A stretch of 64,000 nt of DNA from Bordetella hinzii LMG 13501 (lineage in GTDB: Bacteria; Pseudomonadota; Gammaproteobacteria; Burkholderiales; Burkholderiaceae_B): positions 1 through 64,000 of the forward strand of contig NZ_LRUJ01000025.1 in NCBI RefSeq assembly GCF_001548475.1. The letters run 5' to 3'. A program made the position numbers and the translations under genes. The notes beneath the pieces were generated by a model, which was not told the DNA's origin, ran no database searches, and saw only the letters and a program-made list of their open reading frames with translations. This document shows positions 3,973 through 39,137 of the stretch, in pieces. Numbering within the stretch: position 1 is the first letter of the stretch; every line of letters starts with the position of its first letter.

Positions 3973-4593
3973 TTGAAGCAATCCGCAAGCGGCGCGCGCG
4001 CCATCCGCATCGTCGGCGGCCAATTCCGCCGCACCCCGATCACCGTGCCGGACGTCCCCGGCCTGCGCCCCACCCCCGACCGGGTGCGTGAAACCCTGTT
4101 CAACTGGCTGGCCCATCTCTGGCATGGCGATTTCCATGACAAGCGCGTGCTGGACCTGTTCGCCGGCAGCGGCGCGCTCGGGCTGGAAGCGGCCTCCCGC
4201 GGCGTGGCGCAGGTCCAGATGGTCGAGCGCGACCGGGCCGCGGTGTCCGCGCTACGGACACTGCGCGATAAATTAAAGGCCGATCAGATCCGCATCCACG
4301 CCGGCGACGCCCTGCAGGCCCTGTCGCGCATGGACGCTTCGCGCTTTGACCTCGTTTTGCTGGACCCGCCCTTCGGACAGGGTTGGCTGGAGCGGATCTG
4401 GCCGCTTCTGCCCCCCGTGCTGGAAGACGGCGCCCTGGTCTATGTGGAAGCGGAATCTCCCGTCCAGGCTCCGCCGGAATTCACACTTTTGCGCGATGGC
4501 AAGGCCGGCGCCGTCCATTACCGCCTGCTCCAATTTGCTGCATTGCGGAAAACGGACAATAATCCGGATTCGGAGGATGGTGTAACGCCATAA
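3973..4593 (+). CDS. rsmD: 16S rRNA (guanine966-N2)-methyltransferase RsmD
   Basis: 206-residue SAM-dependent methyltransferase acting on G966 of 16S rRNA. A TTG start is chosen: AGGAGG lies at 3959-3964, 8 bp upstream, and the N-terminus then reads LKQSASGARAIRIVGGQFRRT, matching the family RIVGG-(Q/E)-xR(R/G) opening. The SAM motif DLFAGSGALGLEAASRG is near residues 56-72, and the catalytic DPPF (N/D-P-P-F/Y) near 130. It heads a rightward group with coaD and yfhL and is divergent from ftsY. The open frame continues far upstream through ftsY, but that part is shadow sequence. Confidence 0.93.
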   Translation: MKQSASGARAIRIVGGQFRRTPITVPDVPGLRPTPDRVRETLFNWLAHLWHGDFHDKRVLDLFAGSGALGLEAASRGVAQVQMVERDRAAVSALRTLRDKLKADQIRIHAGDALQALSRMDASRFDLVLLDPPFGQGWLERIWPLLPPVLEDGALVYVEAESPVQAPPEFTLLRDGKAGAVHYRLLQFAALRKTDNNPDSEDGVTP

Positions 4594-4616
4594 ACATATA
4601 AGGTTTGGGAGCCCGC

Positions 4617-6658
<2,042 letters not shown>

Positions 6659-6662
<4 letters not shown>

Positions 6663-7042
6663 AGCGGCCAGCGCACGGCGTCCATGTCGGGATGCACCTT
6701 GAGCAAGCGCGCCGGGATGCCCAGGTGGTTGGACATCCAGGCCGCGGCCAGCTCGCCTTCGTCGACGACGTCCACCGCCTGCCCGCCGATGAGGATCTGA
6801 TAGCGCACGCTGTCATCGTCCTCGATGACATCCAGCGGGATATCCAGGCGCAGCATGCCCGGCGCGCGCAGCACCAGATAGCCCAGGCGCAGCTCCACGC
6901 TCACCTGCGCCAGTCCGGGGCAGAGCTCGGGCGTCAGCCATTGGCCGGCGTCATTGCTGACCAGCCAGCGGCGCTGGTAATCGGCCGCCTGGGCCTGCCC
7001 GGTGTGGCCGCAGCCGGCCACTGGCTGATAGGTCGTGCTCAT
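6659..7042 (-). CDS. stand-alone MOSC N-terminal beta-barrel domain protein
   Basis: 127 residues resembling only the N-terminal beta-barrel domain (MOSC_N) that normally precedes the molybdenum-cofactor-sulfurase C-terminal (MOSC) domain. Seen: the WLV(S/D) strand near residue 26 (RRWLVSNDAGQWLT), a VDEGELAAAWMSNHLG segment near 92-107 and LLKVHPD near 115. The catalytic MOSC domain is absent, and the frame ends at a stop shared with the convergent benE. The start overlaps the asmA stop (ATGA), so translation is coupled to asmA. It could be a genuine small protein or a truncated gene; function not assignable. Confidence 0.6.
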
Positions 7043-9528
7043 TTGCCCAGGACGCCCTTGAGTGCCTTGCCCACATCGCCCTTGCCGGCCTTGCCGCCCA
7101 GGGCTTCCTTGATCTTGCTCTCCACGCCGCGCTTGAGCAGCGTGCCGGCGATCTCGCGCCATTGCACGGTGTAGACCGGCTTGTCGAACGTGCCGCTGAT
7201 AAGGACCGGCACCGGCAGGTTGCGCAGCTCGGCGAGGTCCTTGCCTTCGTTGCTGGCATTGACCACGCGCGCGATCGCCACGAAGTTGATCGTGCTGTTG
7301 ACGAAATCGATGGCCGCCGGCTGGCCCTGGGACACGCGCAGGTAGTCCGTGGCGATGTCCAGGCGCTTGACCGTGCCCACGCCCTTGGCCAGCGTCATGT
7401 CGCCTTCCATGGCGGTGAAGGCGGTCTGGCGCGCGTTGTCGGCCCCGAACGTCATGTCTTCCGGCTGGCCGCTGACCACGGCCTTGAGGTCGCGCAGGGT
7501 CTGCGACAGGTTGATGCCCTTGACCGCGCCGTCGCGCAGGCGCAGCTGCACCGAGCCGCCCAGATTGGTGGTCAGCGCATAGCTGTTGGCGCCCGCCGTG
7601 CTCAGATCCAGCGCCAGGCTGCCATTGCCGGACAGCGTGTCGCGCTTGGCGACGTCGACCAGCAAGGGCTCGATGGCGATCCCCGTGAGATTGAGCTTGG
7701 CGGCCATCTGGTTGCCGTCGGCCGCGTTGACCGAGAACGCGCCGGCCAGCTTGCCGTTGTAGAGATCGGCGGCCAGGCCGGTGATGTCCAGCTTGCCTTT
7801 CTCCAGCTTGATGTTGGCGCCCACCTGCGACGCCTTCAGGCCGCGCACGACCAGCTGGCCGACCTTGATCGTGCCATTGGCGCTGGGGCCCACCAGCCCG
7901 GAAAGATTGATGCTGTCGTCAGCGGGCTTGGCGGGCGCGGCAGGCTTGGCCGGCGGCTTGGATTCATCCTGCTTGCCGTCGCCGGCCGGCTTGGCCGGCG
8001 CGGCCGCCACGGGCGGCGCCAGCTTGTCGAGGTCCAGCGTGTCCACGGCCAGCGCGAACTTCAGCTGGGGCTGGGCCGAGAGCTGGGCCAGGTCCGCGGT
8101 GAGGTCGAACTTGCCGCCCTCGAGCACGGCGTTGATCTTGGCGCTGGCCTGGTCCTTGAGCAGGTCGGCCGACACGCTGCCGATCACCGGGATCTGCAGG
8201 CTGCCCTTGGGCAGGGCCGGGTCGGTGATGTTGACATCGCCCTTGAGCGCGGCCAGGCCGACCACGCGCTGCGCGAGGTTCAGCGACACCGGCGAGGCGA
8301 ACACGGTCTTGACCAGGCGCTCGCCCTGCTTGAAGCTGCCGTCGACCTTGGCTTCCTTGATGTCCAGTTCGGAAGCATTGCCGCTGATGCCGGTCAGGCC
8401 GAAGCTGGCGTCCAGCGATTGATTGCGGATGCGCCCGGTGAGCGCATCGCCGCCGGCGGAGGCGGGCGAGACATGGAGGCTCGGCGTATCGAGCGCGAAT
8501 TCGAAAGGCCCCTCGGCGGCCGTGCCCTTGGCGCGCACGGCGAGTTTCTCGACCTGCAGCTGGGTCTTGTGCGGGTCCAGGGAGAGCTTGGGCACCGCCA
8601 CGCTGGCGTCCACGCCCGTCAGCTTGGCCGAGGGGTGGGCGATATCGCCCTGGAAGAGCATCTCCAGCCCGGCCACGTCCAGCGAGGACGTCGCGCCATT
8701 GAAGGCCAGGTTGCCGCGCACCACCAGGCTCTTGGCCTGGGCGCTGGGAATCTTGCCCTCCATGCGCAGATCCAGGCGCTGGGCGGCATAGCGCTTGGCC
8801 GCCGGATCCAGCCGCAGCAGCGCCTGGCCGGTCAGGCCGGCGTCAAAGCGCGGATCCCCGCCCTCGACGCGCGCGGTCAGGCTCACGTCGAAAGGCTGGT
8901 TGAAGGTCACCCGCCCGGTATTGGCATTGAGCTGCGTGACCGAGACCGCCATGCCGGTCATGGCATCCTGCATCTGCAGCTCGCCGTCCTTGAGGTCCAG
9001 GCCGGCGATGTCGATCTGCATGCTGCGCGGCGCGCTGACCGTGCCGCTGGCCAGGGCCTGCGCGGCGCCCGAGATGGCGCCCACCGTGGCCTCGGCCGCA
9101 TTGGCCGGCACGCCGGTGTTCTGCACCGATCCGCCGACCAGATTCTCGAAATTGAAATGGCCGTTCTTGTCGCGCATGATGCGCGCCTTGAAGCCATTGA
9201 TGGTGACGTGGTCGACGACCAGGTTGTTGGACAGCAGGGGCCAGACGGCCACGGCCAGGCGCATGCTGTCGATCGACGCGAAGGTCTCGGGGCTCTTGGG
9301 CTCGGACAGGGACACACCCTGCACCGACAGGCCGATGCGCGGGAACAGCGAAAGCTCGATCTCGCCTTCGATCGTCAGCGTGCGCTGATAGCGCTCCTGG
9401 ACCAGTTCCTCAAGCTTGTACTTGTAGGCATTGGGATCGAAGGTCAGCAGGAAGATGGCCAATCCCACGACCGCCACCAGCACCAACACCACCAAGCCTA
9501 TCAAAATGCGCTTGAACCACGTCTTCAT
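7039..9528 (-). CDS. asmA: AsmA family envelope protein
   Basis: 829-residue protein with one N-terminal transmembrane anchor (residues about 7-29, MKTWFKRILIGLVVLVLVAVVG) and a long periplasmic beta-rich body. AsmA_N features are visible (KLSLFPRIGLSV-type segment near 57-68, LPLLS-x-N-LVVDHVTINGF near 85-105) and the AsmA C-terminal domain near 600-780 (NLGGSVQLRLRDGAVKGINL). A Lys/Pro/Ala linker lies near 515-545. AsmA-like proteins belong to the bridge-like lipid transfer group and are linked to outer-membrane phospholipid homeostasis. ATG chosen because the hydrophobic anchor begins immediately after it. Downstream overlap with the MOSC-N gene. Confidence 0.88.
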   Translation of the reverse strand: MKTWFKRILIGLVVLVLVAVVGLAIFLLTFDPNAYKYKLEELVQERYQRTLTIEGEIELSLFPRIGLSVQGVSLSEPKSPETFASIDSMRLAVAVWPLLSNNLVVDHVTINGFKARIMRDKNGHFNFENLVGGSVQNTGVPANAAEATVGAISGAAQALASGTVSAPRSMQIDIAGLDLKDGELQMQDAMTGMAVSVTQLNANTGRVTFNQPFDVSLTARVEGGDPRFDAGLTGQALLRLDPAAKRYAAQRLDLRMEGKIPSAQAKSLVVRGNLAFNGATSSLDVAGLEMLFQGDIAHPSAKLTGVDASVAVPKLSLDPHKTQLQVEKLAVRAKGTAAEGPFEFALDTPSLHVSPASAGGDALTGRIRNQSLDASFGLTGISGNASELDIKEAKVDGSFKQGERLVKTVFASPVSLNLAQRVVGLAALKGDVNITDPALPKGSLQIPVIGSVSADLLKDQASAKINAVLEGGKFDLTADLAQLSAQPQLKFALAVDTLDLDKLAPPVAAAPAKPAGDGKQDESKPPAKPAAPAKPADDSINLSGLVGPSANGTIKVGQLVVRGLKASQVGANIKLEKGKLDITGLAADLYNGKLAGAFSVNAADGNQMAAKLNLTGIAIEPLLVDVAKRDTLSGNGSLALDLSTAGANSYALTTNLGGSVQLRLRDGAVKGINLSQTLRDLKAVVSGQPEDMTFGADNARQTAFTAMEGDMTLAKGVGTVKRLDIATDYLRVSQGQPAAIDFVNSTINFVAIARVVNASNEGKDLAELRNLPVPVLISGTFDKPVYTVQWREIAGTLLKRGVESKIKEALGGKAGKGDVGKALKGVLGK

Positions 9529-9995
9529 TGCCGCCCCGTCGATAACTCGACTTGGAATAATCCCAAAAGGGCCGGCCCCGTCGGGACCGGCGCGTTCACC
9601 GTGGCTACCCTCCGCCAACCAGGACCGCCAGCATTCGAGGCAAGCCACATCGGCCTGGCCGAGGGGACAAGGCAGAGGTTTCAGGGAAAAGGGAGCGTCA
9701 ACGGCTTGATCCGCGCGCAGCCGCGCCGGATAACGCTATCGTAACAAATCAGGGGCGCCTCAATGGAAATGCCACGCATCCTGGAAGACAAAACCCCTGG
9801 GTTTGCGCAAGCATAAGGGAAAATCCCAGGCCTGGCAGGCGCCACAAGCCGGAAAACCCGCCCCAGATCCGCGCTTTCCCAGCGGAGCGCGGCAGGTTTT
9901 GTTGCGCAATGGCGAGTTTTGCAACCTGCCGCGGCCCCTGTGCGCGGCCCGCCGCCGGCCCCAAGTGGCCAAGTGGTCTAGAATCCTTAGCCATC
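9529..9995. other. intergenic region between asmA and the metal-uptake operon
   Basis: About 470 bp separating the divergent asmA and DUF2946 genes. It must hold both promoters. I looked for a Fur-like box (GATAAT repeats) and found only weak matches near 9730-9748 (GGATAACGCTATCG). No convincing ORF, tRNA or hairpin was seen. Confidence 0.5.
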
Positions 9996-10394
9996 ATGCA
10001 GATCCGGGCCACCCCCTTGCCGCGATGCCGCGCCGCCGTTTTCTGGCTGGCGCTGCTGCTGTTCGCGCTCAAGGCCCTGGTGCCCCAGGGTTTCATGCCC
10101 GGTTCGCCGCATGGCGGCACGCTGATCCAGCTCTGCTCGGCCTCCGGCCCCATCTGGGTGCAGGGCCCGTCCAAGGCCGACCACGCGCCCGACGAGCGCC
10201 ATGCCGCGCAGGCCGCCGCCTGTTCGGTGGGCGCGGCCGTGGCCGCCGCGGCCCTGCTGGGCGCGCCGCCCGCGCCGGTGCCGGTCGCCGAACAAGTTTT
10301 CCCCATCGCCGCGCGCGCCCCGCCCACGCCGCGCGTCCATCCCGTCCTCAGCGCGCCGCTCGGCGCGCGCGCCCCTCCCCTGTCTCTCGCCTGA
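9996..10394 (+). CDS. DUF2946-like small exported or membrane protein
   Basis: 132-residue protein: one N-terminal hydrophobic segment (residues about 12-32, AVFWLALLLFALKALVPQGFMPG), then LIQLCSASGPIW, a short His/Asp-containing stretch (KADHAPDERH), a second hydrophobic Ala-rich stretch and a Pro-rich tail. This pattern (LLxFALLxRALVPxGFMP followed by a Cys) is the DUF2946 pattern, often encoded just upstream of TonB-dependent receptors. The 80-bp gap to the receptor gene suggests one operon. The molecular role is unknown. Confidence 0.65.
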   Translation: MQIRATPLPRCRAAVFWLALLLFALKALVPQGFMPGSPHGGTLIQLCSASGPIWVQGPSKADHAPDERHAAQAAACSVGAAVAAAALLGAPPAPVPVAEQVFPIAARAPPTPRVHPVLSAPLGARAPPLSLA

Positions 10395-10473
10395 TCGCCG
10401 CCGGCAGCGTGCTGCCGGCCTGATTCTTGCCGTCCATCGCGGACGGTCCTCAACGATTTGAACGAGAGATTCC

Positions 10474-12573
10474 ATGCGAACCCCCTCCGTCAGGATGCGC
10501 CTGGCCGCGCTTTGCTGCGTGCCCGGCGCGGCCTGGGCCGCGCCCGTGGCCACCCTGCCCAGCATCGCCGTGCGCGGCGATGACACCGTCCTGCAGCAAC
10601 CCGCCGCCACTGGCACCCTGCTGGGCCTGACGCCCTTGCAGACGCCGGCCAGCATCGAGATCATCGACAACGCGCAGCTGCGCGAGCGCGGCGCGGTCAA
10701 TGCCATCGACGCCATTACCCAGGCCACCGGCATCAGCGCCATGCGCCACCCCGGCAACGGCGGCTCCTCGCTGTCTTCGCGCGGATTCACCGACAGCAAT
10801 TCGGTAGCCATGCTCTATGACGGCGTGCGGCAGTTCGGCGGCGTGGGCCAGACCTTCGTCTACGACCCCTGGGCCGTGGACCGCATCGAGGTCCTGCGCG
10901 GCCCGGCCTCGGTGCTGTATGGCGAGGGCGCCATCGGCGGCGTGGTCAACGTCATCCCCAAGAAACCCACGCGCGGCCCCGTCGAGAACGAAATCCAGCT
11001 CACGGCGGGCACGCATGACACCCAGCGCCTGGGCTTTGGCAGCGGCGGCGCGCTGGATGACCGCTGGTCGTACCGGCTGGACCTCAGCGGCAACCACACG
11101 GACTCGGGCCTGAGCCTGGGCGACAGCCGCAATACCGCCGCGACGGCCGCGTTGCGCCTGGACGTCTCGCCGCAGCTCAATTTCACGCTCACCCAGGCCT
11201 TTTCCTGGCAGGAGCCCACGCGCTATTTCGGCACGCCGCTGGTCGATGGCAGCCTGGACTACGGCTTGCGGCGGCAGAACTACAACGTCGCCGACAGCAA
11301 GATCATCTACCGCGATAGCCGCAGCGAACTGAAGGCCGAATGGACGCCCAATGCAACGACCCAGCTGCGCGCGCGCGTGTACTACATCGGCAGCGACCGC
11401 GATTATCGCGACGCCGAGAACTACACCTGGCTGCCCACGGGCATGATCCAGCGCAGCGCCTATACGGATATCCGGCACGACCAGTCCCAGGCCGGCGCCA
11501 TCGCCGACGCCAGCTTCGACGGCCGGTTGCTGGGCCTGCGCAACAAAGTGGCCGTCGGTTTCGAACTCAACCGCGCGTCGCTCAAGCACAGCAACAACTC
11601 ACCCTATGGCGGCACGTCGGTCGTCGACCCCTACGAGGTGGACCACGGGCGCTTCATCAACCTGGCCGGTACCTCGCCGCGCTATCGCAACACGGCCGGG
11701 CAGTACGCACTGTTTGCCGAAGACCGGCTGATGCTCACCGACCGCTGGTCCGTGCTGGCCGGGCTGCGCTACGACCACATCGACCTCAAGCGCCGCGACC
11801 TGGTGGCCGGGCAGACCGCCTACCGCACCCAGTTCGACAATGTGGGCTGGCGCGTGGGCTCGGTCTACGCCTTCACCCCCGATCTCTCGGTCTATGCGCA
11901 ATACGCCGAGGCCGCCGACCCGGTCGGCAGCCTGCTGCTGCTCTCGCCGGCCAACAAGGACTTTGATCTTTCCACGGGCCGCCAGGTCGAGGTCGGCATC
12001 AAGCATGCCTTCTGGGACCAGCGCGGCCAATGGACGCTGGCCGCCTACCACATCCGCAAGAACCACCTGCTCAGCCGCGACCCCAACGATCCTTCGCTGC
12101 GGGTGCAGGTCGGCGAGCAATCCAGCCGGGGCCTGGAAGCCACGCTGGGCCTGCAGATCAGCGCCGATCTGCGCCTGGACCTCAATGCCGCGCTGCTGCG
12201 CGCGCGCTATGACGACTTCAGCGAATCCGCGGGCGGCCAGGCGGTCTCGCGCGATGGCAATGTCCCCGCCGACGTGCCCGAGAGAATCGCCAATGCCTGG
12301 CTGAGCTGGCGTTTCGCTCCCCAGTGGACGGCGGCGGCCGGCCTGCGCTATGTGGGCCGCCGCTATGCCGACGCGGCCAACAAACTGGAGATGGCGGGCT
12401 ACACGACCACCGACCTGGCGCTCATCTGGGAGGCGCGCCGCGACCTCACCCTGGCCCTGCGTGGCTACAACGTCTTCGACCGCCAGTACGCCGAGACCGC
12501 TTATTACAACCAGACCCAATGGCTGGTCGGCGAAGGACGGCGCGTGGAACTGAGCGCCAACTACCGCTTCTGA
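10474..12573 (+). CDS. TonB-dependent outer-membrane receptor, siderophore type
   Basis: 699 residues: signal peptide with AWA cleavage near residue 22, plug domain about 45-155 (TPASIEIIDNAQLRERG; SRGFTDSNSVAMLYDGVR; RIEVLRGPASVLYGEGAIGG), then a 22-strand barrel to a terminal aromatic (NYRF). The plug motif RIEV-x-RGP-x-SVLYG and VVNVIPKKP are typical of siderophore receptors, so energised uptake of a ferric siderophore across the outer membrane is the best guess. No separate N-terminal signalling domain is present, so it is not a sigma/anti-sigma-controlled transducer. It is followed 10 bp later by a PepSY-TM gene. With a DUF2946 partner, a copper-related ligand is an alternative. Confidence 0.87.
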   Translation: MRTPSVRMRLAALCCVPGAAWAAPVATLPSIAVRGDDTVLQQPAATGTLLGLTPLQTPASIEIIDNAQLRERGAVNAIDAITQATGISAMRHPGNGGSSLSSRGFTDSNSVAMLYDGVRQFGGVGQTFVYDPWAVDRIEVLRGPASVLYGEGAIGGVVNVIPKKPTRGPVENEIQLTAGTHDTQRLGFGSGGALDDRWSYRLDLSGNHTDSGLSLGDSRNTAATAALRLDVSPQLNFTLTQAFSWQEPTRYFGTPLVDGSLDYGLRRQNYNVADSKIIYRDSRSELKAEWTPNATTQLRARVYYIGSDRDYRDAENYTWLPTGMIQRSAYTDIRHDQSQAGAIADASFDGRLLGLRNKVAVGFELNRASLKHSNNSPYGGTSVVDPYEVDHGRFINLAGTSPRYRNTAGQYALFAEDRLMLTDRWSVLAGLRYDHIDLKRRDLVAGQTAYRTQFDNVGWRVGSVYAFTPDLSVYAQYAEAADPVGSLLLLSPANKDFDLSTGRQVEVGIKHAFWDQRGQWTLAAYHIRKNHLLSRDPNDPSLRVQVGEQSSRGLEATLGLQISADLRLDLNAALLRARYDDFSESAGGQAVSRDGNVPADVPERIANAWLSWRFAPQWTAAAGLRYVGRRYADAANKLEMAGYTTTDLALIWEARRDLTLALRGYNVFDRQYAETAYYNQTQWLVGEGRRVELSANYRF

Positions 12574-28986: not shown

Positions 28987-31900
28987 TCACTTCGACCAAG
29001 CGTTCGACAGTGATTCCGCTTGCTTCAGCACCAGTTCGATGGCGGCATCCTCACCCACCGGTGGGTACTTCCACTTCTTTAGCGTACGCCGTACCAGAAT
29101 CCGCAGCTTGGCGCGTACGCTCTCGCGTACTTGCCAATCTACCGTGGTGCTGTTGCGCAGCTTCTCGGTGATTTCGACGGCAATTTTCTTGAGAATGTCG
29201 TCACCCAGCTCCCGCACGGCGCTTTCGTTGTTGGCCAGCGCATCGTAGAAGGCGATCTCGTCCGGATTCAGCCCCAGCGCTGCTTCACGCTCCAGCGCTG
29301 CCTGGAAGTCCTTGGCCATCTGGATCAGTTCCTCGATGACCTGAGCCGTCTCCACCGCCCGATTGTGGTACCTGCGCAGGGTTTCTAGCAGGCGGTCGCC
29401 GTACTTCTTCTCCTGCACTACGTTGTTGCGGACGCGGGCCCTGATCTCGTCGCGCAACAGCTTTTCCAGCAGTTCCACCGCCAGATTGCGGCTCCGCATC
29501 TGTCGCACGTCTTCCAGGAACTCGTCCGATAGCAGGCCGATGTTGGGCTTGTCCAAGCCCGCCAGGGCGAAGATGTCCGCCACCCCGTCCGCCACGATGG
29601 CGTTGTCCAGAATCTGCTTGAGCGCACTGTTCTTGTCCGCGTCGGAACGCTTGCGATCCACCGTGGTGAACTTGACGATGGCGGCCTTGACGGCAGCGAA
29701 GAAGGCAATCTCCGTGCGCAGGGCGGCGGCCTCGTCCAGCGTGCTGCACAGGGAAAACGCCTTGCTCACCGCCAGCATGGCATCCAGAAAGCGCTGCTTG
29801 CCGTCCTTCAGCCCCAGGATATGGTTGGCGACCGGCACCAGCAGCTTCATCGCATCGGTCTCGAACCCGCTGTAATCGAAGCCGTGCATAAGCCCACGCA
29901 CGATGTCGAGCTTCTCCAGCAGCACGGCCAGGGCCTCGGCTGCGTTGTGCGCCGGGTCGCCCTTGCCCTTGGATTCGGTGTAGGTTTTGAGCGCCGCCTT
30001 CAACTCGTTGGCAATGCCGATGTAATCCACCACCAATCCGCCAGGCTTGTTGCGGAACACCCGATTGACGCGGGCGATGGCCTGCATCAGGTTGTGGCCC
30101 TTCATGGGCTTGTCCACGTACATGGTGTGGCAGCAGGGCGCGTCGAAGCCGGTAAGCCACATGTCGCGCACGATCACCAGCCTCAATGGGTCCGCCGGAT
30201 CCTTGAAGCGCTTTTCCAGGCGCTTTTTCACCTGCTGGCTGTACAGGTGCGGCTGCAGCAAGGGCTTGTCCGCTGCCGAGCCAGTCATGATCACCTTGAT
30301 TGCACCCTTTTCCGCTTCGGCGTCGTGCCAATCCGGGCGCAAGGCAACGATGGCGTTGTACAGCTCGGCGCAGATGTCGCGGCTCATGCACACGATCATC
30401 GCCTTGCCTTCCAGCGTGGCGTTGCGTGTCTCGAAGTGCTGCACCAGATCTGCTGCCACCTGCTCCAGGCGCGGCTGTGCGCCCACCAGCTTGGTCAGTG
30501 CCGCCCAATCACTCTTGGTCTTTTCCCGGGCGGTGATGTCTTCCTCGTCCTCGATGACTTCATCCACCTGGGCATTGAGCGCGTCGATCTCGGCCTGGTT
30601 CACATCCAGCTTGGCCAGACGGCTTTCATAGAAGATCGGCACCGTGGCGCCATCGTCCACCGCGTCCTGAATGTCGTAGATGCTGACGTAGTCGCCAAAC
30701 ACCGCCCGTGTGTCCTTGTCTTCCAAGGCGATGGGCGTTCCGGTGAAGCCGATGAAGGTGGCGTTGGCCAGTGCGTCGCGCATGTGCTTGGCATAGCCGA
30801 ACACGTACTTGCCGGTCTTGGTATCCAGCCGCCCCTTCATGCCGTATTGGCTGCGGTGCGCCTCGTCGGAAATCACCACGATATTGCTGCGATCCGACAG
30901 CAGCGGGTGCTGCTCCTCATCGTCCAGCAGGGCGAACTTCTGCACCGTGGTGAAGATGATACCGCCCGCCTCGCGTGAGGCCAGCATCTCGCGCAATTCT
31001 TCGCGGCTACCGGCCTGCACTGGCGTTTGCCGGAGCAGGTCTTCGGCGGCGCAAAAGGTGCCGTACAACTGCCCATCCAGATCATTACGGTCAGTCACCA
31101 CCACCAGTGTAGGGTTCTTCATCTCCGGCTGCTGCAATAACTTGCCCGCGTAGCAGGCCATGGTGATGCTCTTGCCCGAGCCTTGCGTATGCCAAACCAC
31201 GCCCGCCTTGCGGCTGCCGGGCTGGACTTCCTTGCCATACGTGGCACGTGGCTCCTGCACTTCCAGCAAACCTTTGTTCGAACTGCTGGCGGCGATCACC
31301 GTGGCCTTCACCGCCTCGCGCACGGCATGGAACTGATGGTAGCCCGCGATCTTCTTGATGATATGGTCGGCGTCCTGCTCGAACAGCACGAAGTGGCGCA
31401 CATAGTCGAGAAACAGCGCAGGCTCGAAGAAACCGCGCACCAGCGTTTCCAGCTCGAATTCCAGCAGCGGCCGATCATCCTCGTTGGCAATCGCCCGCCA
31501 GGGCTGCATGCGTTCCTGGTTGGCCGTGAGTGAACCCAGCCGCGCCGTGAAGCCGTCGCTGACCACTACTGCGACATTGCTGTTGAACAGGTCGCTAATC
31601 TCATCCTTGTAGGTCTGGATCTGGTTGAAGGCATCCCAGATGTCAGTCTGCTCGTTGGCCGGGTTCTTCAGCTCGATCACCGCCAGCGGCAGGCCGTTGA
31701 CGAAGGCCACCAGATCGGGACGGCGCGGCTGCTTGGTGCCGGTCACGGTGAACTGGCTGACCAGAAGGAAGTCGTTGTCGCGAGGATTGGCGAAGTCGAT
31801 CAGGCTGACCAGGTCGGTGCGCTTTTCGTCGCCGATGGAGAATTCGACCTGAATGCCGGACAGCAGCAACCGATGCACGCGGCGGTTGCGGGCGATCAGC

Positions 31901-32139
31901 AGTGGCTCGCTCACTGTCATCAGTTCATGCGCGGCTTGCTCCAGCGCGGCAGCCGGAATATGCGGATTGATGCGGGCCAGCGCCGCCAGCAACTGCTCGC
32001 GCAACACCACTTGCCGGTAATCCGTGCGCGCAGGCTGCGCACCATCGGGCGCAATCTCCGGCCCGTTGGCGTAGCGCCAGCCCAGCTCGCCAAACCAGCC
32101 GATGGCGGCGTCTTCGAGTTGTTGTTCAGTAACGCTCAT
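28987..32139 (-). CDS. hsdR: type I restriction endonuclease subunit R (HsdR)
   Basis: 1050-residue motor and nuclease subunit. N-terminal nuclease domain with the PD-(D/E)xK-like signature PDLVAFVNGLPLAVIELK near 139-158; SF2 helicase motifs: Walker A HTQGSGKS near 320-327, VVVTDRNDLDGQL near 350, DEAHRSQYG near 420, GFTGTP near 458, and VDKPMKGHNLMQAIARVNR near 665-683. C-terminal helical region binds the methylase core. It translocates DNA and cuts it when the recognition site is unmethylated. The gene appears intact. Downstream of hsdS by about 330 bp that contain the small ORFs; the same transcription unit is likely. Confidence 0.96.
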   Translation of the reverse strand: MSVTEQQLEDAAIGWFGELGWRYANGPEIAPDGAQPARTDYRQVVLREQLLAALARINPHIPAAALEQAAHELMTVSEPLLIARNRRVHRLLLSGIQVEFSIGDEKRTDLVSLIDFANPRDNDFLLVSQFTVTGTKQPRRPDLVAFVNGLPLAVIELKNPANEQTDIWDAFNQIQTYKDEISDLFNSNVAVVVSDGFTARLGSLTANQERMQPWRAIANEDDRPLLEFELETLVRGFFEPALFLDYVRHFVLFEQDADHIIKKIAGYHQFHAVREAVKATVIAASSSNKGLLEVQEPRATYGKEVQPGSRKAGVVWHTQGSGKSITMACYAGKLLQQPEMKNPTLVVVTDRNDLDGQLYGTFCAAEDLLRQTPVQAGSREELREMLASREAGGIIFTTVQKFALLDDEEQHPLLSDRSNIVVISDEAHRSQYGMKGRLDTKTGKYVFGYAKHMRDALANATFIGFTGTPIALEDKDTRAVFGDYVSIYDIQDAVDDGATVPIFYESRLAKLDVNQAEIDALNAQVDEVIEDEEDITAREKTKSDWAALTKLVGAQPRLEQVAADLVQHFETRNATLEGKAMIVCMSRDICAELYNAIVALRPDWHDAEAEKGAIKVIMTGSAADKPLLQPHLYSQQVKKRLEKRFKDPADPLRLVIVRDMWLTGFDAPCCHTMYVDKPMKGHNLMQAIARVNRVFRNKPGGLVVDYIGIANELKAALKTYTESKGKGDPAHNAAEALAVLLEKLDIVRGLMHGFDYSGFETDAMKLLVPVANHILGLKDGKQRFLDAMLAVSKAFSLCSTLDEAAALRTEIAFFAAVKAAIVKFTTVDRKRSDADKNSALKQILDNAIVADGVADIFALAGLDKPNIGLLSDEFLEDVRQMRSRNLAVELLEKLLRDEIRARVRNNVVQEKKYGDRLLETLRRYHNRAVETAQVIEELIQMAKDFQAALEREAALGLNPDEIAFYDALANNESAVRELGDDILKKIAVEITEKLRNSTTVDWQVRESVRAKLRILVRRTLKKWKYPPVGEDAAIELVLKQAESLSNAWSK

Positions 32140-32161: not shown

Positions 32162-32365
32162 TCACTTGATCGCTTTTCTGCTACCCGCTACAAATTTTTC
32201 CGGCTTGTCTTTCACAAGTTCTAACTGATATCGACGACGATCAAGGACTTGCAAAAATGCCATTTCATGGCCGTCGGCAATGATAACTTTCCCTTTTGAT
32301 TCTGAAATATCAACACCGGTATTCTTGCAAAGCTTCTTGAGCGAACTCTTGTCAATATTCTTCAT
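32162..32365 (-). CDS. small ORF, probable C-terminal remnant of a KwaB-like (DUF4868) protein
   Basis: 67 residues (MKNIDKSSLKKLCKNTGVD, then a GKVII strand, then AFLQVLDRRRYQLELVKDKP and a basic end SRKAIK). The order short strand, leucine-rich FLxVLxDxxY helix and basic tail resembles my recollection of the end of Kiwa KwaB/DUF4868 proteins; I could not search. It is more AT-rich than the chromosome. It overlaps the preceding 39-codon ORF by 14 bases and lies 22 bp before hsdR. Either a translated fragment or a genuine small protein. Confidence 0.45.
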   Translation of the reverse strand: MKNIDKSSLKKLCKNTGVDISESKGKVIIADGHEMAFLQVLDRRRYQLELVKDKPEKFVAGSRKAIK

Positions 32366-32471
32366 CGCGAATGGCCCAAAGCATGAACAGCGGAGAGATG
32401 CTGCTCATCACCATCAGTAGCCGCGCCGTCTTGAGCCCTTCGCCGCAGCTCTTGTTGGGAACGTTACTCAT
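32352..32471 (-). CDS. 39-residue membrane ORF, probable N-terminal remnant of a KwaA-like protein
   Basis: Start overlaps the hsdS stop (ATGA). The product begins [19 protein letters not shown] and holds one hydrophobic segment (about 18-34) ending LFMLWAIR, then runs into a short non-native tail (DEEY) and TGA. A membrane protein that stops right after its first helix, fused to the start of the next ORF, looks like the product of a deletion. Kiwa KwaA is a multi-helix membrane protein encoded before KwaB, so the pair fits a collapsed kwaAB (inference). Confidence 0.45.
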   Translation of the reverse strand: MSNVPNKSCGEGLKTARLLMVMSSISPLFMLWAIRDEEY

Positions 32472-33853
32472 ATCTCCATCCCTGCAAGGAACTTCTCAGT
32501 ATTCGATACATGCAATTCACCAGAGAGGAGTTTGGGAAGGAGGGTGTCGCGGAGTTCGGCGAGCGTCTGCGACGATTCAGCATGCGCGTTAATCACTCTG
32601 AAAATTGGCTCAACAAAACCCGAAAACGCAGGCCAAGTTGAATTTTCCGACGGCGCGGTAATTTTGAATTTCTCAACGGCTTCGACTTGCGCACGCTGGC
32701 GACCAGATGTACCCGTCATGCTGCGTATGGCGTGTTCACGAAATGGCGCATGCCGCACCAGCAAATAGGCGTACTCCTGCGGCACTGGTTTTTTCGACCG
32801 CATGACAATGAACTCCGTTGAACCCCATCCCACCGTTTCATCGGGCAAATTCTGTACGAAAGCCGATTTACCGTTCTCCAGGCATGGTGTGATGCGTGCC
32901 AACAAGGCGTCGCCGTTGCGAAAGCGCATGCCGCTGCCAAATTCTCTGGGCGTCGGTGGCTCTGCCCAGCTACCAGATGTCGGCAATGACGCCATATCCA
33001 GATAAGGTGCAACAGTACCTTTACGCAGCGGCTCTTTGGGGTTGAATTCAATTAATTCACTGGCAGGAACCACCTTCCACCCCTTCGGAATCTCCCCCAA
33101 CTCCGACTCTTCCATGGCATCGGGAAACAGCGCGGCGGTGGTGGCGAGTTGGTCGTGGTGTTCGCGGGGCATCTGGTCGAGTTCGGCGTCGGTTTTGCCG
33201 CTGATGGCGCGCATGGCGGCGCGCAGCGGGTCTTCGCCCTGTTCGATGGCGGCGATCTTGGCCTTGACCGGGTCGAAATCGACAAACCAGGATTTGAAGA
33301 TGGCTTGCGCCATGGCTTCGAGAGTTTGGTTGATACGGCGGTTGAGGTCGATCTTATCGTCGAGGGATCTCAACACCTTTGCCAAACCACGTTGCCTCTC
33401 AATCGGTGGTAGCGGAATCTTCAATTCGGCTAACGCCTTCCCGGTCAAATGCTTGATGGTCGTCCCGGTGAAATACGGTTCAAGCGCTCCGGTCTTGCCA
33501 GCATGCAAGAACCAGTAGTAAAGAAAGTAGTTGTCGAGGCCGCTCTTCACCCTGATTCTGTGCAGCGCCTTTTGAATCTTCATGTTGGGCACTTCACCCT
33601 GCCAGATCGCACACCGCCCTGGCTCTCCTCCCTCGCAAACTACCAAATCTCCGTCACGGAGTCCGTACCGCTCTTCTTCTTGCTGTTCAAAGCGCATTAC
33701 AGCGAGGTCTTGAAGATCAAACGCTCCCCATCGCACGTTGCTATTCCCAAGATAGGGCTGGAAAGCCCCCCGATTCTTCTGGGCGTCTAGCATCTTCCCG
33801 AGACACGCTTCCACGTAATCCCCGAGACGTACCACAGGGTCGTTAAAAGCCAT
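32468..33853 (-). CDS. hsdS: type I restriction-modification specificity subunit S (HsdS)
   Basis: 461 residues with two target-recognition domains and two conserved helical spacers: TRD1 about 10-150, conserved region 1 ([37 protein letters not shown]) about 152-190, TRD2 about 250-400, conserved region 2 ([21 protein letters not shown]) about 425-447. The spacer includes [16 protein letters not shown], usual for this subfamily. It sets the bipartite DNA sequence that the complex recognises. The ATG is chosen inside the end of hsdM (11-bp overlap). No frameshift seen, so the complex is probably active. Confidence 0.95.
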
Positions 33854-35558
33854 AACCCAACCCCGCCAAATTCTTCTTGATCTCCGCTTCCAGCTTCGCA
33901 TTCTCCGCAAGCTGCTCCGCAAGTTGCGACGTCAGTCGCTGCATCTTGTCGGCAAAGGGCTCGTCGTCATCTTCCTGCTCTACGGCGCCCACGTAGCGCC
34001 CCGGCGCCAGCACATGCTCATGCTTGCGGATCTCTTCCAACTTGGCGGAATAGCAGAAGCCAGCCACATCCTCGTACCCTTCGCCCTGCTGCCAAGCATG
34101 GAAGGTATCGGCAATTTTCTGGATGTCTTTCGGGGTAAAGTCGCGCAGTACACGGTCTTTCATATAGCCCAACTGGCGGGCATCGATGAACAGGAATTCA
34201 CCGCGCCGGTCGCGCTTCTTCTTGTCCAGCGCGAAGCCGTTCTGCTTGTCGCGGGTCAGGAACCAGATGCAGGCCGGAATCTGGGTGTTGGTGAACAACT
34301 GGCCGGGCAGCGCCACCATGCACTCCACGTAGTCGTCCTCGATCAACCGTTTGCGAATTTCGCCCTCGCTGTTGGTGTTGGAACTCATCGAACCGTTGGC
34401 CAGCAGTAGCGCCATGCTGCCGGTGGGCGTCAGGTGCCAGAGCATGTGCTGCAACCACGCGAAGTTGGCGTTGCCTTGCGGCGGCGTGCCGGCAATCCAG
34501 CGCGGATCGGCGGCCAGCTTTTCGTTCCACCATTCCTTCATGTTGAAGGGCGGGTTGGCCATGACAAAATCGGCACGCAGGTCCGGGTGCAGATCGTTGA
34601 GCAGCGTGTCCGCCGGGCCTGTACCGAAGTTGAAGTCGATGCCACGAATGGCCATGTTCATCGCGGCCAGCCGCCAGGTGGTAGGGTTGCTCTCCTGCCC
34701 ATAGACGCTGATCTGCCCGCTCCTGCCGTTGGCTGCCTTGCCGCCGTGCTGTTCGATGAACTCCTCGCTTTGCACGAAGAAGCCGCCGGAGCCCATGGCC
34801 GGGTCGTAGACGCGCCCCTTGAACGGCTGGAGCATTTCCACGATCAGGGTGACGATGCTCTTGGGCGTGTAGTACTGGCCGCCCTTCTTGCCTTCTGCCA
34901 GGGCGAACTGGCCGAGGAAGTATTCGTAGACGTGGCCAAGGATGTCCTTGGATTTCAGGTCCAGCGGCTGGCCCTTGTACTCCTTGGCGCTGAAGTCGGT
35001 ATCCGAGAAGTGGCTGATCAGCCCGGCCAGCTTGCTAGAGTCGAGTTGCACGCGGGAAAAGTCCTTGTTCAGTACGTTCTTCAGGCGGGCGTTCTCGCGC
35101 TCGACGGCTTCCATGGCGTTGTCGATCAGCCAGCCGACCGAACGCATTTCCTCCGGCTCGTCCTTGCCCGGCTTGTTCCACGGCAGCGCGGCCTTGGGCG
35201 GCAGTTGCGCACAATCGCGCAGGGTTTTCCAGCGCGCTTCCATCGGCACCCAGAACACGTTCTTCTCGGTGTAGTAGTCGCGGACTTCCAGCTCGGCGGC
35301 AATGTTTTCTTCGTACTCCTGGGTGCCTGCGCCGCCGTATTCGTCCGGATCCAAGTAGTAGTCATGATCCGGGTTGGTGAACTGCTCGCGCAGTTCGCGC
35401 TGCCGTTCTTCGAAGGCATCGGAGACGTACTTGAGGAAGATCAGCCCGAGCACGACGTGCTTGTACACGGCAGCGTCGAGATTGGAGCGCAGCTTGTCGG
35501 CGGCGGTCCAGAGCTTTTTTTCCAGGGCGTTGAAGAATTGTTGCTCAATGAGATGCAT
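33843..35558 (-). CDS. hsdM: type I restriction-modification methyltransferase subunit M (HsdM)
   Basis: 571-residue N6-adenine methyltransferase. N-terminal HsdM_N domain (about 1-180, starting [15 protein letters not shown]), then the SAM motif [10 protein letters not shown] near 254 and the catalytic NPPF near 333 ([14 protein letters not shown]). [18 protein letters not shown] near 225-242 is the usual lead into the methylase domain. It modifies the host recognition site and is required for restriction too. hsdS overlaps its end; the Mrr-like gene ends 26 bp upstream of its start, so the cluster is probably one transcript. Confidence 0.96.
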
Positions 35559-35584: not shown

Positions 35585-36577
35585 TCAGGCAGGCCAATAC
35601 AGACGTTTTAAGGGAACGATGCGTTTGGTTTCGGCGTCGGTGGTGTCGTAGTGCTCGATCAGGGCGCGCACCACATGGTCCAGCGTCCACATCGCCAGGG
35701 GGATGGAGGCGCGGTCTGCTTCATACTGGGCATCCTTGGTGAAGCCGCCGGTGCTGACATACAGCCCACGATCATCCTTGTGGCGACCGCCGAGGAAGCT
35801 ACGGATTTCCTGACTGCCCATTTGGCCCTTGCGGTGCTTGACCTCCACGACGATGCGCGGGTGTTCGAAGCCAAATCCGTCCGGCGAAGCCACGATGTCT
35901 TTGCCCCGATCCGAGCCGGGTGGCGATACTTGGGTCTTGTAGCCCATGGCGCGCAGAATGCCGGCGACCAACTGCTGCATGTCGTCCCAGTCGAGTTCGT
36001 TGACCCGATCCTTGATGCGCTCCAGCGCCTGGGACTCGATGTCGGCCAGTGGGTCAGCGATGACGTCCTCTGTTTCATCTTCCACGGCCGGTGCCGGTTT
36101 ACCCTTCAGCGCCGCCAGCACTTCAGCTGCCGCGCTGGACGGCACCTCGAACAGAGTCAGGGTCGAACCCAGGCTGTTCTTTGTGCTGGTGCCCAAGCTG
36201 TCGCGCAGTAGTTCCTGCGTTTGCCACTGCACCTTGCGCGTCAGTGGCATGCCTCGCTCGGCCCACTCTGGGTGATGCTCGGCTGGTCCTGTGATCTTGC
36301 CGATCGAATACAGGCGATTGGCTGGCGAATAGGTGATGACCCAGTCGCCATCCTGGATGTCGTTAACGAAACGCCAGACCTGCGATGCACCCGATACCAC
36401 TGTGCCTTGCTTTGCCTGTGGCTCGACAGACTGGTACAGGGCGATTAGCTGCTTGCGTCCGACGCCGGGTTTGGCATGGGCTGCCAATTGATTCCAGCCC
36501 ACAGCGGCTACGCCGCGTTCTCGGAAGGCGTCATACAAGCTTCCGCCTTCGCCTCGCACCATCCACATCCGTGCCAT
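35585..36577 (-). CDS. Mrr-like restriction endonuclease
   Basis: 330 residues. N-terminal domain about 1-130 (MARMWMVRGEGGSLYDAFRE; WRFVNDIQDGDWVITYSPANRLYSIGKI), a linker with acidic stretch near 160-185, and a C-terminal Mrr_cat nuclease domain: QQLVAGILRAMGY near 200, the catalytic Asp in GSDRGKDIVAS near 220-230, and VEVKHRKGQ near 242-250 (the D-x(n)-E-x-K motif). Such proteins cut modified DNA. ATG at 36577 follows AGAGAGGGAATGCA; an earlier ATG at 36604 overlaps the regulator stop as TGATG and would add nine residues. Lies between the regulator and hsdM. Confidence 0.87.
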   Translation of the reverse strand: MARMWMVRGEGGSLYDAFRERGVAAVGWNQLAAHAKPGVGRKQLIALYQSVEPQAKQGTVVSGASQVWRFVNDIQDGDWVITYSPANRLYSIGKITGPAEHHPEWAERGMPLTRKVQWQTQELLRDSLGTSTKNSLGSTLTLFEVPSSAAAEVLAALKGKPAPAVEDETEDVIADPLADIESQALERIKDRVNELDWDDMQQLVAGILRAMGYKTQVSPPGSDRGKDIVASPDGFGFEHPRIVVEVKHRKGQMGSQEIRSFLGGRHKDDRGLYVSTGGFTKDAQYEADRASIPLAMWTLDHVVRALIEHYDTTDAETKRIVPLKRLYWPA

Positions 36578-36603
36578 TGCATTCCCTCTCTTATTCGTAG
36601 CCA

Positions 36604-36924
36604 TCAATCCAGCACCACCAGAAACTCCGTCGCCAGCGCTGTCGGCTGAACATCCCGAACATTGCGTCGCAGCGATACCAGGCCGTAATTGGCCATCATT
36701 CTCAGAGTGCGTGACAGGTTCGGCACCTTGCGGCCGCTGAGTTCGGCAAGTTCGGTCAGGGACTTGGGTTGCTTGTCATGGATCAGGCGCAGCAGGTGGC
36801 GGTTGTCGTCCGACAGCACCGCTGCCAGTGATGCCAAGGATGGAAACCAGATGCTGGGAACCCCACCTCCTTGCGGAGGAGGCGAACTATCCGGTTGTCG
36901 AACACCGACAATGCAGCGTTTCAT
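36604..36924 (-). CDS. HTH transcriptional regulator (MarR-like, HVO_A0114-type)
   Basis: 106 residues, with IWFPSLASLAAVLSDDNRHLLRLI near 25-48 and a winged helix-turn-helix KSLTELAELSGRKVPNLSRTLRMMANYGLVSLRR near 53-86. The W-F-P-S-L-x-S-x-A-x-V-L-S opening followed by this helix-turn-helix is what I recall of the HVO_A0114-type putative DNA-binding proteins. First gene of the leftward defence operon, so a controller of restriction gene expression is the natural reading. A tandem 20-bp repeat lies 37-76 bp upstream. An in-frame GTG at 36930 would add two residues. Confidence 0.7.
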   Translation of the reverse strand: MKRCIVGVRQPDSSPPPQGGGVPSIWFPSLASLAAVLSDDNRHLLRLIHDKQPKSLTELAELSGRKVPNLSRTLRMMANYGLVSLRRNVRDVQPTALATEFLVVLD

Positions 36925-36960
36925 GATCACAAGCCCAAAGACACGTTAACTTACAATAAT

Positions 36961-37000: not shown

Positions 37001-37159
37001 GTTTGGCGAACCAGGAAAACCTGCCGCGCCCCGCGAGGAAATGGAGCAATTCAACAAAAATTACCCCAATACTCTCAAGCGATTACCCCATTTTCCAACG
37101 CTCCGCACGCGGCAAGGGCAAATGACAAGGGAAGGGCACTCCACGGACAACGGCCCTAT

Positions 37160-37850
37160 CCAGAAAAGGAAAAGGCCGCAAATGGCCTGCGTCGACAACG
37201 GGCTGACATGGTCGCGCCGCGCTTTCATCTTCGTCGCAGGCCGACGCCACAGTGCATCCTCAAAGTCGAACTCCTCCCACTCGGCATCCGCCGCTTCCCC
37301 TGGACGGCAGGCGGTCAGCGCAATCAGCCGCAGACACAAAGAGGTTTCCGGATAGCCGCGGTAGCCACGCAACTCCTGATAGAACTTCTGGATTTGCTCT
37401 CGCTGAACGGTACGCGCAGTAGCCCACGCAGGCTGGGAATCGGATTGGGCTCGACCAGACCACGCACCACCGCGAACTCGAAGATGGCCGAAAGATCGCC
37501 ACGTGACATGGATGGCCGCCCCCGCGCCGTGGGCCTTGCACTCCTCCAGCAACGGGCAGATATGCTTGACGCCAATGTCGCCCATCGGCATCCCATCGAA
37601 CTTGGGCGACAGATGCTTCCTGGTGCGGGATTCTTTCGTGCGGTGGGAACTGAGCGCGAAGACTGGCTTCATCTTGGCCAGGTACGTCTGCGCTACTTTG
37701 GCGAACGAGCTTTCCTTTGCGCGCTTGCGTTCCTCTAGCACTTCCAGGTTGCGCTGCTTGACCTGTCGCCGCTCAGCGCAGGGGATACCTTGCTTGACCA
37801 AGGCACGCGCTTTCTCGCGGGCTGCACGCGCCTCGGCATGGCTTACTTGA
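37160..37850 (-). pseudogene. P4-type tyrosine integrase, decayed
   Basis: From 37850 leftwards: an arm and core-binding region (VSHAEARAAREKARALVKQG; SFAKVAQTYLAKMKPVF; KESRTRKHLSPKF), then a break in frame: LSAIFEFAVVRGLVEPNPIPSL is in a second frame, and the catalytic-domain opening LRLIALTACRPGEAADAEWEEFDF, with the first catalytic Arg context TACRPGE, returns to the first. The sequence degenerates after KMKARRDHVSPLS; no HxxR or catalytic Tyr is seen. The N-terminal arm domain is missing, replaced by the dispersed repeat. It lies just inside the ychF-side repeat, where an integrase is expected. Confidence 0.85.
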
Positions 37851-37862
37851 GGAAAGCCCCGG

Positions 37863-37932
37863 GGGCACGCCCCGCCTAATCCGTGCTTTGCGAACTGAGG
37901 TTTCTTCGCAAAGCGCCCGCCGCGGGCGTCGG
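37863..37932. repeat. 70-bp dispersed repeat, copy B
   Basis: One mismatch to 27051-27120. It sits 2 bp from the right direct repeat and occupies the place where the integrase N-terminus should be, so its insertion or an associated deletion probably inactivated the integrase. Confidence 0.85.
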
Positions 37933-37934
37933 AA

Positions 37935-38056
37935 GCCTGGCCTCGGCAAACACCCATGTGGGAATGCCGCGGCCAATCTGACAGTACAGCCCGATTGACC
38001 GCCCGCGCCGCGCCTGCGAACGCCGCCGAGGTCCAGCAACAACCGTCAGACGTTGA
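37935..38056. repeat. right direct repeat (attR-like) at the ychF 3' end
   Basis: Partner of 28065-28186 (five mismatches in 122 bp, no gaps). Contains the last 11 bases of ychF and about 110 bp of its downstream sequence. Confidence 0.9.
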
Positions 38057-39137
38057 ACAAGAAGTTCATCACGTCGCCGTCCTGCACGACATATTCCTTG
38101 CCTTCGGCGCGCATCTTGCCGGCTTCCTTGGCGCCCTGCTCGCCCTTGCAGGCGATGTAGTCGTCGTAGGAGATGGTCTGGGCGCGGATGAAGCCGCGTT
38201 CGAAGTCGGTGTGGATGACGCCGGCGGCCTGCGGGGCGGTGGCGCCGATGGGGATGGTCCAGGCGCGCACTTCCTTCACGCCGGCGGTGAAATAGGTCTG
38301 CAGGCCCAGCAGCTTGAAGGCGGCGCGAATGAGGCGGTTCAGGCCGGGCTCTTCCATGCCCATGTCGGCGAGGAAGGCCTGGCGGTCGTCGTCGGCCAGG
38401 TCGACGATCTCGGATTCGATGGCCGCGCAGATGGCCACGACGGGCGCGTTGCGCTGGGCGGCGAATTCGGTGAGGCGGTCCAGCAGGGGGTTGTCGGTGA
38501 AGCCGTCGTCGCTGACGTTGCCGACGTACATGGCGGGCTTGGCGGTGATGAAGCACAGCGGCTTGATGAGCGCGAATTCTTCATCGGACAGGCCCAAGCC
38601 GCGCACGGGCTTGGCCTGGTTCAGGTGGGCGATGCATTTTTCCAGCACGCTGACCAGGCGCTGGGCTTCTTTGTCGCCGGAGCGCGCGGTCTTGGAGTGG
38701 CGGTGCAGGGCCTTTTCGGCGGTCTGCAGGTCGGCCAGGGCCAGTTCGGTTTCGATGACTTCGATGTCGGCGATGGGGTCGACCTTGCCGGCGACGTGGA
38801 TCACGTTGGGATCCTCGAAGCAGCGCACGACGTTGACGATGGCGTCGGTCTCGCGGATGTGCGAGAGGAATTGGTTGCCCAGGCCCTCGCCTTGGCTGGC
38901 GCCAGCCACCAGGCCGGCGATGTCGACGAATTCGACCGTGGCCGGCAGCACGCGCTCGGGCTTGACGATCTCGGCCAGCTTGCCCAGGCGGGGGTCGGGG
39001 ACTTCCACCACGCCCACGTTGGGTTCGATGGTGCAGAAGGGGTAGTTCTCGGCCGCGATACCGGCGCGGGTCAGCGCGTTGAAGAGGGTCGATTTGCCGA
39101 CGTTGGGCAGGCCGACGATGCCGCATTGCAGAGCCAT
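38046..39137 (-). CDS. ychF: OBG-family ATPase/GTPase YchF
   Basis: 363-residue P-loop protein. G1 [15 protein letters not shown] at residues 9-23, switch region [22 protein letters not shown] near 30-51, [19 protein letters not shown] near 69-87, then a coiled-coil insert and a C-terminal TGS domain ([28 protein letters not shown]). YchF prefers ATP, binds ribosomes and acts in stress control. The usual pair pth-ychF is here separated by the CPBP gene. Its last codons are part of the island attachment repeat, yet the protein is full length (ends FLFNV). Confidence 0.96.

Follow-up and report, generated by a model that had tools for sequence, protein, structure and literature searches.

The window, a stretch of 64,000 nucleotides from Bordetella hinzii LMG 13501 (contig NZ_LRUJ01000025.1, positions 1 to 64,000), carries on its minus strand a type I restriction operon with the gene order mrr-like gene, hsdM, hsdS, a short stretch, and hsdR (Table 1). 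All three hsd genes are present at full length, with recognisable motifs in HsdM and HsdR, and since these motifs are kept the restriction system is probably intact. Overlapping the mrr-like gene by 4 bases at its start is a small winged-helix gene (36604-36930, minus strand; HVO_A0114, E 2.4e-18, MarR), a possible regulator of the operon. A phage-type integrase gene (37061-37957, minus strand) lies upstream of the operon; it adjoins a ychF-like GTPase gene (38046-39137) and may mark the edge of an island.

Table 1. Features of the restriction operon and of the Kiwa fragments within it (window coordinates).
Feature	Coordinates	Strand	Evidence and remarks
hsdR	28987..32139	-	PADLOC REase_I, 1185 bits; D142...ELK, GSGKS and DEAH motifs
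kwaB' (last 66 kwaB codons behind an ATG at the junction)	32162..32365	-	PADLOC; comparison with L006
kwaA' (first 35 kwaA codons, then 4 out-of-frame codons and a stop)	32352..32471	-	PADLOC; DNA alignment with L006
Deletion junction, approximate (few bases uncertain)	32362..32366	-	Limits of homology against L006 and L011
hsdS (mechanical ORF from TTG; homology to relatives from about 33856)	32468..33922	-	PADLOC Specificity_I, E 2.3e-158
hsdS 3' block (coding for about 13 residues)	32523..32559	-	95% identical in DNA to L050, which has other slot content
hsdM	33843..35558	-	PF02384, E 6.1e-109; DPAMGSGG and NPPF motifs
Mrr-family nuclease gene (PDC-S02), upstream of hsdM	35585..36607	-	PF04471, E 3.4e-24; PDLC04819, E 3.4e-84

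The short stretch between hsdS and hsdR, hereafter the slot, holds two small open reading frames, kwaA' and kwaB'. The start of kwaA' overlaps the stop of hsdS as ATGA (32468-32471), the two frames overlap each other by 14 bases, and the end of kwaB' is 22 bases from the start of hsdR (32139). A preliminary description of this DNA, made from the letters alone, had reported a 39-codon ORF coupled to hsdS and overlapping a 67-codon ORF by 14 bases, and both are where it placed them. It had also taken the first for the start of kwaA and the second for the end of KwaB, and had suggested a comparison with profiles, which bore out both assignments at the predicted ends. The 39-aa product, with one hydrophobic segment, matched PADLOC KwaA PDLC00218 (E 2.4e-10) over profile positions 4-33 of 186, and the 67-aa product, read across 67 codons without a stop, matched KwaB PDLC00228 (E 6.8e-26) over positions 235-299 of 300. 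Pfam returned nothing above cut-off for either fragment, the 39-aa product giving only sub-threshold matches to DUF7816 and DUF4014, as might be seen if two short ORFs resembled Kiwa by chance. However, PADLOC matches of this strength, each to the expected end of its protein and arranged in Kiwa order, together with identity to the complete Kiwa locus L006 (83% in DNA for the kwaA part, 66% for the kwaB' product over the matching part of KwaB), reduce the probability of chance resemblance to a negligible level, and we treat it as refuted. A profile search with PDLC00218 and PDLC00228 found no second match elsewhere in the same genome, and PF16162 (KwaB) had no match in this genome or in 14 control genomes. 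The locus thus consists of two Kiwa fragments without an adjacent complete kwaA and kwaB and, judged by its sequence, is a Kiwa remnant and not a working member.

We located the junction by comparison with two intact relatives. Measured on L006 and L011, homology to kwaA stops at slot base 106 (window 32366), and homology to kwaB runs from about slot base 110 (window 32362) in the L011 comparison; up to the junction, slot bases 29-106 align with L006 kwaA without gaps and with the register kept. This clean switch from kwaA to kwaB argues for one internal deletion, about 1.17 kb in size when measured on intact L006, and agrees with the earlier suggestion that an internal deletion had left both ends. 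An assembly error at the junction, which is taken from the assembled sequence, would be a point against this reading.

That the frames are open and overlapping, that the first begins in ATGA with hsdS and that the second runs for 67 codons without a stop would also be expected if both were small genes kept by selection, such as a membrane peptide and a small protein made of the KwaB end. A recent deletion, however, would equally leave an open frame, and the KwaA part stops four codons past the junction, where its frame is shifted. The preliminary description had named the unchanged presence of these ORFs in many genomes as the observation that would speak for real small genes; we found no true copy of the 67-codon ORF among 199 other genomes of the family, and therefore the ORFs are not conserved small genes. 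The family search (200 genomes) gave two matches, the genome of the window itself and a weak match in G172 (E 0.006), which we rejected as a copy of kwaB' since its open frame, on visual inspection of the translation, looks like a LysR-type regulator next to metE. No relative of the 67-aa fragment was found by tblastn against plasmids or in a search of viral contigs, and plasmid blastn of the region returned only short hsdS and hsdR matches. We consider it very unlikely that the two ORFs are selected small genes.

PDLC00228 matched in 3 of 398 genomes of the phylum (the window's, G469 and G267) and in 2 of 369 genomes of the class (the window's and a divergent G1072), while profile scans of genome contigs and viral contigs added L011, L012, L013 and L015 and recovered the L007 contig again as L014. 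Complete kwaA-kwaB pairs are present at six close intact loci (L006, L007, L011, L012, L013 and L015). At five of these, all except L015, full-length kwaA lies directly after hsdS, and hsdR follows downstream at four of the five, the contig of L013 ending before it; the combined restriction and Kiwa operon that had been anticipated in intact relatives is therefore found. Locus L006 (genome G469) sits on a 2.56-Mb contig of a three-contig genome. The other four nested loci come from metagenome bins, namely L007 (as L014) from Zetaproteobacteria, L011 from Planctomycetota, L012 from Chloroflexi and L013 from an ANME-2 archaeal bin. The L013 contig (669-3332) shows a partial hsdS, Kiwa and then a GajA-like gene. 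The type I family at L007 is quite different, its HsdR being only about 30% identical to that of L006, which indicates that Kiwa nesting is not confined to one type I family. At L015, from the virus collection, the neighbours of Kiwa are a methylase gene and a PD-DExK/RNase H-like gene, and no hsd gene was matched in that locus or in the divergent locus of G1072 (L104). The L015 stretch (4266-12130) additionally holds a 408-aa gene without matches near Kiwa.

The intact counterparts are related to KwaA and KwaB and not to some other family, the contrary finding having been set out beforehand as one that would count against a collapsed Kiwa system. PADLOC assigned them to Kiwa (L006 KwaA, E 1e-96), the KwaB proteins of G469 and G267 matched PF16162 above cut-off, and an AlphaFold model of L011 KwaB, built with four sequences (mean pLDDT 55.7, the C-terminal part better), had five KwaB chains as its only PDB matches at E<=0.001 (TM-score 0.42-0.46), among them the KwaB crystal structures 9mtn and 9nyu. 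The KwaA profile gave Kiwa KwaA 9mrg as its best PDB match, at an E-value of only 0.012, and the KwaB profile found none among PDB sequences. KwaA is a membrane protein with four membrane helices, and KwaA of L011 and L006 has three hydrophobic segments above the threshold used. Conservation of cargo and host was mixed, KwaB being 72% and HsdR 54% identical between L006 and L011 and several other pairs showing the opposite, so we did not use it as proof of transfer. Kiwa pairs on Rhizobium plasmids were set aside as nested relatives since they are distant (28-29%) and not nested; one adjoins an hsd operon on the other strand and one has no annotated hsd gene nearby.

Taken together, the ends of the profiles that were matched, the clean junction, the lack of a second copy in the genome, the full-length hsd genes and the complete Kiwa in the same slot of relatives lead us to conclude with high confidence that a kwaA-kwaB pair once lay nested between hsdS and hsdR and that the two ORFs are its ends, the middle having been removed in a single internal deletion. 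Points on the other side are the origin of four of the five nested loci in metagenome bins, the lack of hsd matches at L015 and L104, and the weak or missing PDB matches of the KwaA and KwaB profiles. A KwaA reduced to one hydrophobic segment and a KwaB short of about 235 of its roughly 300 residues would leave the remnant without defence activity.

We also examined how general the nesting of Kiwa is. PF16162 was present in 11 of 398 genomes of the phylum, two of which are those of L006 and L007. Among the nine other loci, Kiwa in L096 is preceded by an AbiP2-type reverse transcriptase and is separated by AbiD and PDC-S05 genes from an hsdR downstream; the 2 kb from the contig start to kwaA showed no hsdS. 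The five, from the reverse transcriptase through Kiwa, AbiD and the PDC-S05 gene to hsdR, follow one another consecutively in L096 (736-10427). The remaining eight showed no convincing hsd genes on the stretch that was read, two of them (L100 and L101) lying at contig ends and one (L095) having a weak HsdR match at its edge; the hsd queries were the loci fetched in this analysis, and distant type I systems could escape them. Nesting thus seems to mark particular Kiwa subfamilies.

HsdR relatives occurred in 95 of 250 genomes of the order (E<=1e-30). For a census of the slot we fetched 32 of the 35 best HsdR places outside the window's own genome, with lower-scoring places excluded and three (G651:C26, G750:C37 and G626:C29) omitted for having little upstream DNA, and recognised hsdS in 31 of the 32, the exception being L078. 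The gap between hsdS and hsdR was at least 500 bp in 28 of these 31 related operons, three having no room, and 26 of the 31 had a same-strand ORF of at least 100 aa in it. The ORFs were called mechanically, and some hsdR starts that had been called too early were trimmed for the stub analysis described below. Of 92 slot ORFs of at least 100 aa (Kiwa loci included), 30 were scanned with Pfam and ten of these also with PADLOC. Pfam identified YobI ATPase, SIR2, Schlafen AlbA, AAA_13, GmrSD and AbiEi/AbiEii domains, as well as a HerA-like domain, a reverse transcriptase, a sub-threshold HEPN and several families of unknown function, and 8 of the 30 had no match at E<=1e-3. One cluster of eleven slot ORFs includes the RhuM-Fic protein of L011 and one of four includes its Abi_C protein.

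By tblastn, the Kiwa subfamily of the window was not found in any of the 31 operons of the order. The L057 slot (5029-8990) contains a full Kiwa pair from a different subfamily (KwaA PDLC00215, E 1.7e-44; KwaB PDLC00235, E 2.7e-102, and PF16162, E 2.2e-34), located behind an AAA_13 gene with a weak PrrC match (E 1.3e-10). In the L072 slot (6931-8387), a gene with weak similarity to KwaA (E 3.7e-9) is paired with a 312-aa partner without a match, and the two are perhaps an unknown Kiwa branch. Cargo embedded in the operon is thus found in the relatives, and the window holds a remnant only. These gene contents show that the operons use the gap between hsdS and hsdR as a general site for cargo; its use by many other defence genes did not form part of the preliminary description.

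The cargo also differs between close relatives, since closely related enzymes in three genomes of the order (HsdR 95, 94 and 83% identical) carry other cargo than the window. DNA of the closest of these, L050 (HsdR 95%), is 90% identical to the window in an hsdM block, 92% in the middle of hsdS and 91% in hsdR, with a further 95% over 37 bp at the 3' end of hsdS, while the target-recognition parts and the slot of the window are unmatched. In L052 the hsdS 3' block is 44 bp long at 89% identity; in L051 blastn reported no such block and the identity in hsdR begins 88 bases into the gene. Such blockwise identity with an unmatched slot indicates that the slot behaves like a third exchangeable part.

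We therefore searched 34 slots (97.5 kb) and 148.5 kb of flanking DNA, with trimmed starts, for pieces of HsdS and HsdR, using as queries seven 70-residue segments from 35 or 36 loci each (E<=1e-3). All ten hits within slots came from the C-terminal segment of HsdS or the N-terminal segment of HsdR; the five other segments had zero matches in the 34 slots, and all segments had zero matches in the flanks. Hits in L052 and L073 were set aside because they lie at slot positions 1-3 and were taken as the tail of hsdS itself, and one in L069 because it adjoins hsdR. This left seven end-stubs in 6 of the 34 slots (L006, L012 with both kinds, L050, L053, L059 and L060), all on the operon strand. In an earlier, looser version (E<=1e-2) there were three weak control hits, all from L059 with its wrong hsdR start, and weak slot hits in L011, L013, L065, L066, L069 and L077, which are not counted here. 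In L006 an hsdS stub follows kwaB. In L012 (4318-4539) an hsdR 5' stub continues into an hsdS 3' stub, and the two separate the Kiwa-Abi_C group from the cargo that follows; where it matches, the hsdR stub is 98% identical to the hsdR of the same locus. Stubs of the L012 type would arise if two cargo-bearing operons were joined end to end and the intervening part was lost. The end-stubs suggest recombination at the hsdS and hsdR ends as the route by which cargo is exchanged and stacked, although the count of seven is small and routes other than recombination could leave stubs.

A slot this variable, with end-stubs in 6 of 34 cases, raises the question of whether the fragments in the window stem from recombination between hsd operons in the course of cargo exchange and not from a simple deletion within one Kiwa pair. 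Yet the order and strand of Kiwa and the register from the start of kwaA are kept, there is hardly any sequence between the two pieces, and the slot of the window has no stub, all of which makes such an origin improbable. The remnant itself, left by a deletion within one Kiwa pair, is ordinary decay. For the slot in general we tentatively propose, giving the idea slightly less than an even chance, that it is a third exchange cassette beside the two target-recognition halves of hsdS, where defence modules including Kiwa would enter, stack and leave via homologous recombination at the conserved hsdS 3' and hsdR 5' ends, with end-stubs as scars and the window as a module being lost.

In the intact operon, the restriction enzyme would cut unmodified DNA. 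The part of Kiwa, as described in an excerpt of a review of its mechanism (PMC12904381), would be to detect infection at the membrane and to bind the DNA that is injected, so that Kiwa might cover phages that block restriction. In the window, the ATGA overlap, the 14-base overlap and the start of hsdR 22 bases on make it plausible that ribosomes still travel from hsdS to hsdR through the leftover frames, in which case restriction would outlive the loss of Kiwa. The points of interest are the nested Kiwa subfamily and the end-stubs rather than the remnant. The presence of one Kiwa subfamily within restriction operons suggests a second, built-in layer against restriction-blocking phages and makes cooperation with restriction directly testable. 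For annotation, it helps to recognise that small ORFs between hsdS and hsdR can be the remains of a whole system. The end-stubs, if upheld in a larger survey, would give a concrete exchange mechanism to a site that is suspected, in an excerpt of PMC12255303, to be a recombination hotspot.

The embedding of defence genes at the hsdS-hsdR site is already in print. Excerpts of published work describe TgvAB embedded in a type I operon and RloF between hsdR and hsdS (PMC11411939), DarTG2 between hsdS and hsdR at what is called a potential recombination hotspot (PMC12255303), HEPN toxins, RhuM and Doc with restriction operons (PMC3710099), extra defence systems at an E. coli type I hotspot (PMC10121019) and an active Kiwa in S. 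thermophilus (PMC11514479); Payne et al. 2024, on embedded defences, is cited in the excerpts of PMC11411939 and PMC12255303. A search of a partial library, covering the titles and beginnings of abstracts that were listed, found neither Kiwa nested in type I operons nor hsd end-stubs in slots.

To our knowledge, Kiwa has been studied as a stand-alone pair, and we know of no PrrC-like contact between it and a restriction enzyme; the PrrC gene lies between hsdS and hsdR. In excerpts of PMC3874165 and PMC12707154, PrrC in EcoprrI is an accessory defence gene embedded in an hsd operon, as nested Kiwa is, and encodes a tRNA nuclease that the restriction enzyme keeps inactive. TgvAB and DarTG2 resemble nested Kiwa in being two-gene defence systems inside a type I operon, but they are other cargo, and neither Kiwa nor end-stubs are mentioned in the excerpts (PMC11411939, PMC12255303). 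The window fragments and the intact relatives match the Kiwa models PDLC00218 and PDLC00228 themselves; the differences are that the window keeps the two ends only and that type I operons house five of the six close intact relatives.
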